Assembly: GCF_026011715.1 (NCBI RefSeq) | Contig: NZ_BRVM01000001.1 | Coordinates: 258,689-322,688 of the forward strand | DNA from: Cytobacillus sp. NCCP-133 | Lineage (GTDB): Bacteria > Bacillota > Bacilli > Bacillales > Cytobacillaceae | Length of the DNA stretch: 64,000 bases | Direction: 5' to 3' | Shown: piece by piece, positions 1-40,444 of the stretch | Layout: every line of letters starts with the position of its first letter | Position numbering within the stretch: position 1 is the stretch's first letter | Position numbers and translations under genes: made by a program | Notes under the pieces: model-generated | What the model saw: only the letters and a program-made list of their open reading frames with translations | Database searches by the model: none | Told to the model about the DNA's origin: nothing

Positions 1-586
1 TGCCGGCTGTCCGTAGTCTCCCAAGCACATTATGCAGCGCGCCCACATTTGGGGCGATCGACATTTCATTATCATTCAAAATGACAATCATGTTCTTCTT
101 TTCATGGCCAATATGGTTCAGTGCTTCTAAAGCCATACCGCCAGTTAGCGCCCCATCCCCTATGACCGGGATAACATAGCTATCTTCTTTTTTCAGGTCT
201 CTGGCGATGGCCATTCCCATTGCGGCAGATAAAGAAGTTGAACTATGTCCCGTTTCCCAAACATCATGTTCGCTTTCAATCATCTTCGGGAACCCGCAAA
301 GACCTTTGTATTGCCTTAATGTATCAAATTGGGACGCACGGCCAGTCAATATTTTATGTACATAGGATTGATGGCCGACATCCCAAATGATTTTATCTTT
401 GGGGCTATCGAAGCATTTATGAAGTGCTACTGTCAATTCCACGACTCCCAGGTTAGGGCCGATATGGCCGCCAGTACCCGAAAGCTTTTCAATGAGGAAT
501 TTGCGAATTTCCTGGCTTAGATTTTCAAGTTCTTTATTAGAAAGCCCCTTCAAAAAGGAAGGGTCTTTAATTGTTAACAGATCCAT
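1..586 (-). CDS. dxs: 1-deoxy-D-xylulose-5-phosphate synthase, N-terminal part (cut by window edge)
   Basis: Condenses pyruvate and glyceraldehyde-3-phosphate to DXP, the first step of the MEP isoprenoid pathway; cytoplasmic, thiamine-diphosphate dependent. About 195 N-terminal residues are present and the frame is open to base 1. The frame shows [20 protein letters not shown] at the start, then [29 protein letters not shown] and the ThDP motif [18 protein letters not shown] followed by [12 protein letters not shown]. The ATG at 586 gives the usual N-terminus of Bacillus Dxs, although the Shine-Dalgarno (GAGTGG) is weak. It lies 12 bp after the DUF21 membrane protein gene and is probably co-transcribed with it. 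Confidence 0.95.
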
Positions 587-598
587 TCTGCGGACCAC

Positions 599-1216
599 TC
601 ACTTTCGTTTCTTATTCGTCCGTTTTTTTAATTTCGTTCTTTTCTTGTCTTTTATTATAACAATATGGAATTTATCCTCAAGAAATTGCAGAACTTTCCC
701 TACCTGGAAGATAATATCTTTAGAGTACCTTATAGCAAGAGATTTTCCAAATGCTTTTCCTCCAACAGTCATTGCAGCTATAATGCTTGTTATAATAACG
801 GAAGAAGCATATTCGAATACGCTGCTGTGATCCATTTGAAATGAGACTGTCAGCTGTACAATTACTATGGCTGCAGCCGCACCGCTAATAATCCCTGAAA
901 TATCGCCGATTACATCATTGCAAAAACTGGCAAACCGATCTGCATTTCTAACGATGCGAATCGAATACCTGGCTCCATATACCTTATTGGAAGCCATGGA
1001 ATGAAAAGGCACTTCATCAGCCGCTGTGGCGGCAATTCCTATCATATCAAAAAAAATGCCAATTAAAACAATAATGGATACAACAATTAGACCGGTTCCC
1101 CATGAAACACCATTCAATATGGAGTTGGAGATAATTGAAAAAAGAGCCGCTAGCACAAAAGTGATAACGGCAATACTGAAGCTCCATTTAATCGAATTCC
1201 GCAGCAACTCTTTCAT
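599..1216 (-). CDS. oapA: OapA-like OLE-RNA-associated membrane protein (DUF21-type)
   Basis: A 205-residue integral membrane protein. Hydrophobic segments lie at about residues 13-35, 40-65, 105-125 and 137-155. Between them is a soluble patch with a DUF21/CNNM flavour (IGIAATAADEVPFHSMASNKVYGARY) and an Arg-rich stretch RYSIRIVRNADRFASF. The C-terminus is very basic (KDKKRTKLKKRTNKKRK). DUF21 is the transmembrane domain of CorB/CNNM magnesium transporters, but the CBS domains of those proteins are absent. In bacteria carrying OLE RNA, a protein of this size and family (OapA, the BH2780 type) is encoded directly downstream of the RNA and between ispA and dxs, as here. The ATG at 1216 follows AAGGAAGT. 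The family call is from memory of the motif and the context; the OapA assignment is an inference but a strong one. Confidence 0.8.
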   Translation of the reverse strand: MKELLRNSIKWSFSIAVITFVLAALFSIISNSILNGVSWGTGLIVVSIIVLIGIFFDMIGIAATAADEVPFHSMASNKVYGARYSIRIVRNADRFASFCNDVIGDISGIISGAAAAIVIVQLTVSFQMDHSSVFEYASSVIITSIIAAMTVGGKAFGKSLAIRYSKDIIFQVGKVLQFLEDKFHIVIIKDKKRTKLKKRTNKKRK

Positions 1217-1251
1217 TTCTGTAAATACTTCCTTTTGAATTAAGAATGAAT

Positions 1252-1323
1252 AAGAGGCGGGGCTCGCCGGTTTTTCGCGAAATCAAGTTCGCCTGTTCAG
1301 CTTCAGCAAGAGCTTCGCCTCTT
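1252..1323 (-). repeat. Imperfect inverted repeat between OLE RNA and oapA
   Basis: AAGAGGCG at 1252-1259 pairs with CGCCTCTT at 1316-1323, and the pairing continues inward (GCTC with GAGC) after a two-base mismatch. This encloses about 50 bases that contain further short GC stems. It lies after the end of the recognisable OLE RNA and 36 bp before the oapA start. It is not followed by a T-run on the minus strand, so it is not an ordinary terminator. It may be a 3' extension of the RNA, a processing or attenuation hairpin, or a small intergenic repeat. Confidence 0.4.
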
Positions 1324-1334
1324 TCTTTGTGATT

Positions 1335-2020
1335 ATTAAGCTTTAACCGCTATGGCAAGCTGCCCATATAGGACAATTTATGTATGAGGGGCAAACCCCT
1401 CAAAAATTTCTGGTAAATAGGATGGCCATACAAAGGGTTAAGATTGCGGCTTAGGTCCAGTAGGTTTTCCCAAGCGAATACCGGATGTCGCCATACCGGC
1501 GGTTTCCCTTTAAATCCGCCTTAGCTGTGTCGCCATCAGCTAGACTGGATTGCCACTTAGTCCGCACTATAATCCCCTTTATATGTCATTGGAACAGTCT
1601 AGGAGATTTCCTCGGCAGCCTTTAACCATTTCCCTAGCCTCTTTTGCAAAGAAGATTTCATACAGGCGAAAAAGCATATATCAATGGCCAACTGATGTAT
1701 GCCCTTATAACTGTAATCCCCTCTATCCTCACTCAAGGCAGGCTACGCTGCTAGTGATCTCCCATGGAATCACATTGCAGGTTCATAACCCGAGATTTCA
1801 GCGCTTACGCTTTCGCTGCAGCACGGCCTTCGGGGCCTCCGCGGTGAAAGGGTCAACGCCCACATGCCTTTGCAGATCGCCCTTACACCTTACTCCCTGA
1901 ATCGACCCAAGGCTGGGCGCCTCAAGCCAAAACAAGGAACTTCATCGATGTGCCCTTTAGTGGATTTTTAGCCCCACCTTCAGGAATGGTAGGCCGACTA
2001 GAATACTGCACCATCCATAT
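1335..2020 (-). ncRNA. ole: OLE RNA (ornate, large, extremophilic)
   Basis: About 690 bases between ispA and the oapA-like gene carry no credible gene but are dense in GC-paired hairpins. Examples are GGCC/GGCC around CTTCG (1825-1837), a CAGCGC stem (about 1799-1818), GAGGGG/CCCCTC with a four-base loop (about 1385-1400) and TATGG/CCATA (about 1351-1368). A promoter with a consensus -10 sits immediately upstream (2027-2055). Known OLE RNAs are about 600-650 nt, fold into a large multi-stem structure, bind the membrane protein OapA, and sit upstream of oapA among isoprenoid genes. Order, orientation and size all match. The 3' end is approximate. The alternatives (group II intron, RNase P, tmRNA) do not fit the context. 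Confidence 0.85.
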
Positions 2021-2026
2021 ATCTCT

Positions 2027-2055
2027 ATTATAGCATAATTGCTGTTGTGCAACAA
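2027..2055 (-). promoter_or_regulatory. Sigma-A promoter of OLE RNA
   Basis: On the minus strand TTGTTG (2050-2055) is followed after 17 bp by a perfect TATAAT (2027-2032). Transcription would start near 2020, at the start of the structured region and 58 bp after the ispA stop. No terminator is visible between ispA and this promoter, so read-through from the ispA operon is also possible. Confidence 0.75.
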
Positions 2056-2077: not shown

Positions 2078-2971
2078 CTAATGACTTCTCTGTGCAATCA
2101 AATCAGTAATCGATTCAAGAAGCCCTGTATTTAACCCTGTCTCAATTAGTTTTTCCTTGGCAGCTCTTATATGGTTACTGAGCGCTTTCTTAGCTCCCTC
2201 CATTGTGAGAAGGGAAGGATAGGTGCTTTTGTTTTTGGATTCATCACTGCCAATAGGCTTGCCTATCTCCTCCTCTGTGCCTTCAAGATCAAGAATGTCA
2301 TCCCTGATTTGAAAAGCCAGCCCAAGATGATAGGCAAAATCTGATAAAGCCTTGATTGTGTCCTCGCTGGCTTTGGCTAAAATTGCACCTGATATCACGC
2401 TGCACTCTAGAAGCCTTCCTGTTTTATGAAGGTGAATATACTCAAGTTCTTCCAAAGAAAGATGCTTCCCTTCCCCTTTAATGTCTGCAGCCTGTCCGCC
2501 AACCATTCCTTCGGCACCGGATGCTTTAGACAGCTCCATTATTAAGGCAAGCTTAACATCGGCTGAAGCATATTCTTGCGGAGTTTCAGTGATGGACTGG
2601 AAGCTATATGTAAGCAGTGCATCGCCAGCAAGAATAGCAAGTGCTTCTCCAAATACTTTGTGGTTCGTTGGCTTTCCCCGTCTTAAATCATCATCATCCA
2701 TGCTGGGAAGATCATCATGGATAAGGGAGTAGGTATGGACCATTTCAATGGCCGCTGCCGTCCATAAACCTTTTGCAGGATTCTCACCAAAGGCTGCCAT
2801 AGCTGCAAATAAAAGCAATGGTCTTATCCGCTTGCCTCCCGCCTCGAGAGAGTACAGCATTGATTGTTTTATCTCATCAGGGGAATTCAATTTGCTGATG
2901 TTATCCTTTAGCTGGTTTTCAAGCATTTGTTTGTAGTGTTCAGAAAAAGAATCCAGGGATTGGTGCAGCAA
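2078..2971 (-). CDS. ispA: Farnesyl diphosphate synthase (polyprenyl synthase family)
   Basis: Adds two isopentenyl diphosphate units to dimethylallyl diphosphate to give farnesyl diphosphate for quinone and undecaprenyl synthesis; cytoplasmic. 297 residues, normal for the family. The first aspartate-rich motif is DDLPSMDDDDLRRGKPTNH (about residue 90), and the second is FQIRDDILDLEG with the following KSTYPSL. The start is a TTG at 2971, 8 bases after GGAGG. The Shine-Dalgarno lies inside the last codons of xseB, which points to translational coupling in an xseA-xseB-ispA operon. Confidence 0.96.
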   Translation of the reverse strand: MLHQSLDSFSEHYKQMLENQLKDNISKLNSPDEIKQSMLYSLEAGGKRIRPLLLFAAMAAFGENPAKGLWTAAAIEMVHTYSLIHDDLPSMDDDDLRRGKPTNHKVFGEALAILAGDALLTYSFQSITETPQEYASADVKLALIMELSKASGAEGMVGGQAADIKGEGKHLSLEELEYIHLHKTGRLLECSVISGAILAKASEDTIKALSDFAYHLGLAFQIRDDILDLEGTEEEIGKPIGSDESKNKSTYPSLLTMEGAKKALSNHIRAAKEKLIETGLNTGLLESITDLIAQRSH

Positions 2972-32605: not shown

Positions 32606-32757
32606 TTGCACCTGAAAGTTTACCGAAACCGGCTTTCCCCTTGGGTGGCTCCACTAGTGAGCACTCTCCAGAGCTGCGTCAAACAAGAGTTCTTTTGCCT
32701 GAGAGATTCACAGGTTTTGCTTGCTCCTTCGGCGCTACAAATGTAGTCTCTCCCCTT
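32606..32757 (-). ncRNA. Tandem glycine riboswitch
   Basis: Two consecutive aptamers on the minus strand. The first has GGGGAGAG, GCGCCGAAGGAGCAAG and AATCTCTCAGGCAAAAGAAC. The second has CTGGAGAG, CACCCAAGGGGAAAGCC and AAACTTTCAGGTGCAAGGAC. These are the signature blocks of the tandem gcvT riboswitch of B. subtilis, which turns on gcvT-gcvPA-gcvPB when glycine is abundant. The promoter should lie near 32760-32820; a TATAAA is present at about 32775 but its -35 is unclear. Confidence 0.95.
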
Positions 32758-32943
32758 GTAATCATTCGCATTTATAAAATTTTCCAAGTTGGTCATACTT
32801 ATACCAAACAGAAAATAGTGACTCCATTATTTCGGTTAACTAAATGTAATGTGTTAACTTTCTAAACTTTCAAAGCTATTATCATCCTACCACCTAAACC
32901 CGGTTTGGGCAATATCTTTATATAGATAAAAGGAGCTGTTTTT

Positions 32944-40372: not shown

Positions 40373-40444
40373 TGGGCTATAGCCAAGCGGTAAGGCAACG
40401 GACTTTGACTCCGTCATGCGTAGGTTCGAATCCTGCTAGCCCAG
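40373..40444 (+). tRNA. trnQ: tRNA-Gln (anticodon TTG)
   Basis: 72-nt cloverleaf: acceptor stem TGGGCTA/TAGCCCA, D-arm GCCAAGCGGTAAGGC, anticodon arm ACGGA-CTTTGAC-TCCGT with anticodon TTG in the loop, T-arm with GGTTCGAATCC. CCA is not encoded. It stands alone on the plus strand, divergent from comG. Confidence 0.96.

Follow-up and report, generated by a model that had tools for sequence, protein, structure and literature searches.

A conserved terminator-like element inside oapA at the OLE RNA locus of Cytobacillus sp. NCCP-133

The OLE RNA locus of Cytobacillus sp. NCCP-133 was confirmed as real, and what appears to be its new part is a conserved terminator-like signal hidden in codons 16–27 of oapA. 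Sequence comparison makes it probable that OLE transcripts would mostly stop inside oapA, that the RNA would exceed OapA, and that the promoter-terminator unit would outlive OLE itself. As such, the OLE locus is a new member, in Cytobacillus, of a known family.

The DNA analysed, referred to as the window, comprised 64,000 nt (assembly GCF_026011715.1, contig NZ_BRVM01000001.1, positions 258,689–322,688, forward strand). Its minus strand carries xseA, xseB, ispA, OLE, oapA and dxs in this order (Table 1). An earlier note on this DNA had proposed the OLE locus; it lacked two points, namely the hairpin with U-tract in oapA and the status of OLE as a relict in the family of the host.

Table 1. 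Features of the OLE locus and its neighbours, in window coordinates
Feature	Position	Strand	Basis
dxs, 5' part (rest beyond window)	1..586	-	ATG 586-584; full length 630 aa from genome
oapA, OLE-associated protein A, 205 aa	599..1216	-	OLE upstream in 38/39 relatives
Candidate dxs promoter in oapA 3' end: TTGAGG, 16 nt, TG-extended TATAAT	654..681	-	plain scan
Weak promoter candidate in oapA: TTGGAA, 17 nt, TACTCT	722..750	-	by eye only
Terminator-like hairpin (1171-1146) plus U-tract, oapA codons 16-27	1137..1171	-	covariance model R1, 64.3 bits
OLE–oapA spacer, containing hairpins	1217..1405	-	MFE -53.1, z -2.37
OLE RNA, full length (RF01071 1-616 of 616)	1406..2030	-	cmscan 499.9 bits, E 1.2e-143
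ole promoter: TTGTTG, 17 nt, TG-extended TATAAT	2027..2055	-	read from sequence
ispA, farnesyl diphosphate synthase	2078..2971	-	NF045485, 436.9 bits (cut-off 275)

OLE RNA, its promoter and OapA

The search of the interval with the Rfam OLE covariance model, set beforehand as the test, gave a match of 499.9 bits at 1406–2030 (-), the gathering cut-off of RF01071 being 50 bits. OLE was present once in the whole 4.3 Mb genome and in none of 14 control genomes. The order ispA, RNA, oapA, dxs, claimed as the OLE context, was found as such on the minus strand. The gene-free stretch was likewise found, its length being 861 bp without an annotated gene (1217–2077) and not the approximately 690 bp given before. 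Excerpts of PMC9723947 describe OLE in the model species as abundant, with its own promoter and presumably processed, and an excerpt of PMC11332333 states that, nearly 20 years after OLE RNA became known, its mechanism is still lacking.

A promoter of its own, as had been proposed for the RNA, was supported by the TG-extended TATAAT. A script crediting extended -10 boxes detected a promoter (score at least 11) at a near-constant distance from OLE in 44 of 45 OLE loci (49 given, four without an anchor, a few being the same genome twice). The description as near-consensus did not hold at the -35 box, where three of six letters fit, and for this reason the site was unlisted by the plain scan. Promoter-like sites found by that scan in the window were not in excess over shuffles, including those resembling the dxs promoter candidate at 654–681 (9 observed versus 9.8), and terminator-like sites were in slight excess (8 versus 5.3, sd 1.9). 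By eye, a site resembling the 654–681 candidate precedes dxs in several OLE-less gaps, and the 722–750 candidate sits in an oapA piece retained by OLE-less Cytobacillus. Elsewhere in the window, a glycine riboswitch aptamer (32677–32765, -, 72.7 bits) and a single tRNA, tRNA-Gln (ttg) at 40373–40444 (+), were observed.

The identification of the 205-aa protein with a basic tail as OapA was borne out by a tail rich in K/R and by its relatives. Among 39 relatives fetched from named genomes, 38 had OLE upstream on the same strand. The exception, L039, was the least similar (26%); it lies about 140 nt after ispA, with no OLE match, and is either some other protein or an OapA lacking OLE. The four nearest relatives were 93–96% identical, two of them labelled Cytobacillus oceanisediminis. 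A record labelled Pseudomonas sp. ISL-84 (JAGGRA010000014.1) contained a Cytobacillus-type ispA-OLE-oapA-dxs locus with an OapA 94% identical, and is probably a mislabelled genome. Residues 48–179 of OapA aligned with Pfam CNNM, formerly DUF21, at 19.6 bits (E 7.7e-4), under the cut-off of 28.4; no NCBIfam model matched.

Compared with the four other OLE-bearing Cytobacillus, OLE was 94–95% identical and the adjoining spacer (1217–1405, -) 77–81%, and oapA gave dN/dS of 0.05–0.06. Because of these values the complete OLE locus is, as judged from sequence, under purifying selection and being kept. The dS of oapA was 0.37–0.58, lower than the 0.93–1.33 of ispA, xseA and dxs, and hidden signals or recombination could be the cause. 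A GAGGCG...CGCCTC hairpin was noted in the spacer; the spacer is similar in the same four Cytobacillus, and its likeness to that of Mesobacillus harenae is 20%. A genome-wide repeat was rejected for this hairpin, which is single-copy in the genome.

The element in codons 16–27 of oapA

The hairpin starts 45 nt past the first base of oapA. It is closed by G-C pairs, has a four-base loop and is followed by a run of U, the DNA form being GCCGTTATCAC-NNNN-GTGTTAGCGGC and then a run of T. The window copy has a folding energy of -14.3 kcal/mol, the U-tract following directly, and covariance model R1, whose 45 sequences include this copy, scored 64.3 bits at the element versus 11.9 for the next best site in the window. 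The stem is imperfect (one G-U, one U-U), and the element was unlisted by the plain terminator scan.

Codon choice was compared in 43 unique oapA genes from 44 loci, with L103 omitted as incomplete. One non-dominant codon was used in at least 95% of the genes in only six of 90 testable columns, all within codons 16–27 (codons 16, 17, 18, 21, 23 and 27, with usage of those codons between 0.18 and 0.39). The element was absent only in L106 among these loci. The count is not circular, because the loci were collected by searching for OLE or OapA and not for the element. When 40 genes were shuffled synonymously, 5 of 2400 shuffles matched the native hairpin-plus-U score; three further genes, with a shorter U-tract, were unscored by the rule, and L106 scores through another hairpin.

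In the aligned set, chosen at up to three mismatches, the stem letters were invariant and the U-tract was retained alongside. Wobble-wobble stem pairs, free to change synonymously, also stayed fixed, which is more than a plain hairpin needs. Covariation was rejected as proof of the stem, being uninformative in both sets: the 45 element sequences hardly vary and gave no support, and among diverged copies two pairs changed on both sides, with 12 of 500 shuffles as high and other measures no better.

In the literature searched, seen partly as excerpts, no description of an element inside oapA was found; the founding OLE papers of 2006 and 2012 lay outside its scope, and an earlier description is possible. 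Searching with the letters of the element returned unrelated papers only, the subject of terminators inside genes general papers only, and ispA-dxs nothing. The terminator treated with OLE RNA and oapA in an excerpt of PMC10898510 is another one.

OLE and the element across the order and the host family

An even sample of the order comprised 397 genomes, of which 225 contained OLE and 271 the element (pattern with up to two mismatches), once each except for two copies in G501. A reversed control pattern occurred once in the 397 genomes. OLE and element were found together in 214 genomes, OLE only in 11, the element only in 57 and neither in 115, so that the element was present in 214 of 225 OLE genomes versus 57 of 172 OLE-less genomes. 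Both OLE surveys, of the order and of the family, were run with stricter filters.

From the 57 genomes, 20 OLE-less loci were fetched; having been picked for the element, they inform on place and not on frequency. In 19 the element lay between ispA and dxs. The exception, L250, from the same genome as L233, has it elsewhere, and this copy is probably unrelated to the ispA-dxs element. A search of 16 of the 20 loci for known RNA families at E up to 1 gave no OLE and a weak microRNA-like match in L242 only. In L236–L239, the stretch from promoter to element was seen by eye to share a family-level leader that includes a small hairpin, ACTACTATGT...GTAGTGCATAGGTTT.

Of 32 OLE-less gaps, 28 had an OLE-like promoter, mostly with extended -10, ahead of the element, compared with 20 of 640 shuffles. 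The -10 box of L194 ends just 2 nt upstream of the hairpin, too near for a normal start, and both L187 and L194 have an altered stem with the hairpin retained. Among copies selected at up to three mismatches, the protein-keeping loop N[TC]TN was present in 43/43 oapA loci versus 15/30 OLE-less gaps (Fisher p 1e-7, the rows being related). In the latter the stem was retained while the loop letters departed from the coding pattern; on this alignment the stem is evidently kept for its own sake.

A DNA profile of oapA from 15 OLE loci detected pieces near codons 9–32 in OLE-less gaps of other genera at up to 40 bits, the best of 20 shuffles per gap reaching 0.7 bits. Decayed oapA was rejected as a general finding for OLE-less genomes of other families: once the element had been masked, only two of their 19 gaps (L253 and L255) retained a second piece. 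As 17 gaps showed no second piece, oapA loss there rests on distribution and not on wreckage.

The more distant OLE loci L016–L040 and L106 had no element at E below 1, and more distant OLE loci, clostridial ones included, keep the order ispA, OLE, oapA, dxs without it. We therefore infer from these loci that OLE between ispA and dxs predates the element and that the element was born within oapA in this order.

Of the 193 genomes from the family of the host, six contained OLE: five of the 36 Cytobacillus genomes and a single genome from a different genus. A tree built by quick search from xseA, xseB, ispA and dxs (69 rows, with SH-aLRT as the sole support measure) united the five Cytobacillus with OLE and 15 without it in one clade (100), within which the 15 formed a subclade (100); OLE presence on this tree needs at least three changes. 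Collinear oapA pieces were found between ispA and dxs in all 15 OLE-less sister gaps, where the codon 153–170 piece alone scored 11.3–26.4 bits (shuffles up to 0.7). These sisters are read, from their sequences, as having lost OLE once.

In 13 of the 15 gaps (two with inserted stretches were omitted), three islands were 0.90–0.99 identical, versus 0.72 at ispA four-fold sites, with poor conservation between them. The first island is a hairpin with weak likeness to the oapA element (2.2 bits at best); the other two correspond to oapA near codons 48–63 (second island) and 153–170 (third island). Judged by conservation the islands are probably functional, possibly as dxs promoters. The codon 153–170 remnant was 0.91–0.99 identical in the gaps of L158 and 12 other OLE-less Cytobacillus and, by eye, contains a short open frame that is not in register with oapA. 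In a further ten gaps of OLE-less Cytobacillus, the matches lay on the side of the 3' end of oapA and the dxs leader.

Across 54 OLE-less gaps of the family (all 31 of Cytobacillus and 23 of other genera), the covariance model detected the element in 18 at E 0.0031 or better and in one more at 0.15; none of the 31 Cytobacillus gaps was among the element-positive ones. A profile of OLE plus spacer gave nothing significant in the 54 gaps (best E 0.18).

The genome search for OapB and OapC that the earlier note had called for yielded a candidate for each, encoded elsewhere in the genome: OapB of 116 aa (matching OLE-associated protein B, whose structure is solved, at E 4.2e-32) and OapC of 82 aa, YbxF/L7Ae-like (nearest YbxF-type chains at E 5e-28 to 7e-28). 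Their presence across OLE RNPs is common, not universal. OapB was rejected as a tracker of OLE, since all 15 OLE-less sisters gave a match at E 8e-56 or better, ten without an internal stop and five with one TAA and a slightly shorter frame. OapB matches were observed in 55 of 193 family genomes, many outside the clade of the host having internal stops. Such stops suggest oapB decay too; the ends of shorter proteins could look alike.

Besides OapA, the host genome encodes three CNNM-CBS-CorC_HlyC (MpfA-type) proteins, and so departs from the published tendency to few or no MpfA paralogs beside OLE. Some published OLE genomes carry MpfA too, according to an excerpt of PMC11332333. Each of the 193 family genomes had at least one CNNM match above cut-off, and a cell retaining MpfA could presumably afford the loss of OLE. 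The family offers natural OLE losses, some with the oapA wreck in place, in genomes retaining CNNM proteins, on which the published proposal of MpfA as a substitute for the OLE complex can be examined in nature.

Proposed mechanism, alternatives and known systems

In the explanation considered probable, polymerase would start just past ispA, transcribe OLE RNA and enter oapA, where most transcripts would halt at the putative intrinsic terminator. Trimming of the 3' end would then yield mature OLE RNA. Full oapA mRNA would arise from read-through only, and OLE RNA would therefore be in surplus over the membrane protein. Because the hairpin starts so close to the first oapA base, a translating ribosome could mask it, tying OapA synthesis to read-through. 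An excerpt of PMC13323073 reports that in Bacilli polymerase outruns ribosomes; a terminator inside a gene could thus act, and some stopping would be expected anyway. Relatives without OLE and oapA would retain promoter and hairpin, which together would form a small transcription unit ahead of dxs, OLE having presumably been lost also in OLE-less genomes of other families. The imperfect stem, the covariation result, the fixed wobble-wobble pairs, the spacing in L194 and the 11 of 225 OLE genomes without the pattern speak against this explanation.

The fixity of the stem letters, wobble-wobble pairs included, in the set chosen at up to three mismatches would also suit a regulated attenuator or binding site, at which a protein or partner RNA reads the exact stem and controls whether transcription continues into oapA and dxs. 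The element is also single in 270 of the 271 genomes and adjoins dxs where examined, except in L250. The conserved U-tract, as in a terminator, and the altered stems with retained hairpin in L187 and L194 argue the other way, and we rate this reading as rather unlikely. A broader proposal is tentative and less likely than not: in many Bacillales, promoter and sequence-specific hairpin, with one copy in each genome, located between ispA and dxs, may work independently of OLE and act on the isoprenoid gene dxs as an attenuator or a small RNA, which OLE-bearing species would have written into the oapA coding sequence. That protein sequence alone is conserved, the hairpin being a by-product of coding A-V-I-T-x-V-L-A-A, agrees with the good conservation of this peptide in the order. 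As a full account it is refuted by the codon fixity, synonymous positions being fixed nowhere else in oapA, and by the persistence of the element in genomes without oapA; we give it hardly any credence.

The rarity of OLE in the family could also mean that the ole-oapA cassette was gained from outside by the Cytobacillus clade and not kept amid losses, and recombination could give such dS values as those of oapA beside its three flanking genes. This is improbable in view of the 15 OLE-less Cytobacillus, the subclade beside the five OLE-bearing ones, in which collinear remnants of oapA occupy the corresponding place, the codon 153–170 piece in every one and well above shuffles; the ispA-OLE-dxs placement is moreover seen in other families and clostridial loci. 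If termination inside oapA is true, a stop signal in the partner gene explains much RNA and little OapA, ole-oapA constructs carry the signal too, and synonymous changes are a clean way to shift the OLE:OapA ratio.

The locus agrees with the OLE RNP of Halalkalibacterium halodurans in its full-length model match, in oapA just downstream, in ispA and dxs as neighbours and in the OapB and OapC candidates encoded in the genome. It differs in the three MpfA-type proteins of the Cytobacillus host and in the terminator-like element in oapA, which is absent from the published descriptions searched, as excerpted. A relation of OapA to the MpfA/CorC (CNNM) transporters is a candidate one: its residues 48–179 align to the CNNM membrane domain with a score below the Pfam cut-off, and no CBS or CorC_HlyC domain is reported for it, in contrast to the three MpfA-type proteins of the genome. 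Like intrinsic terminators and attenuators, the element has a G-C-closed hairpin, a four-base loop and a U run; unlike them, it is part of an open reading frame and shows letter-by-letter conservation throughout the order.
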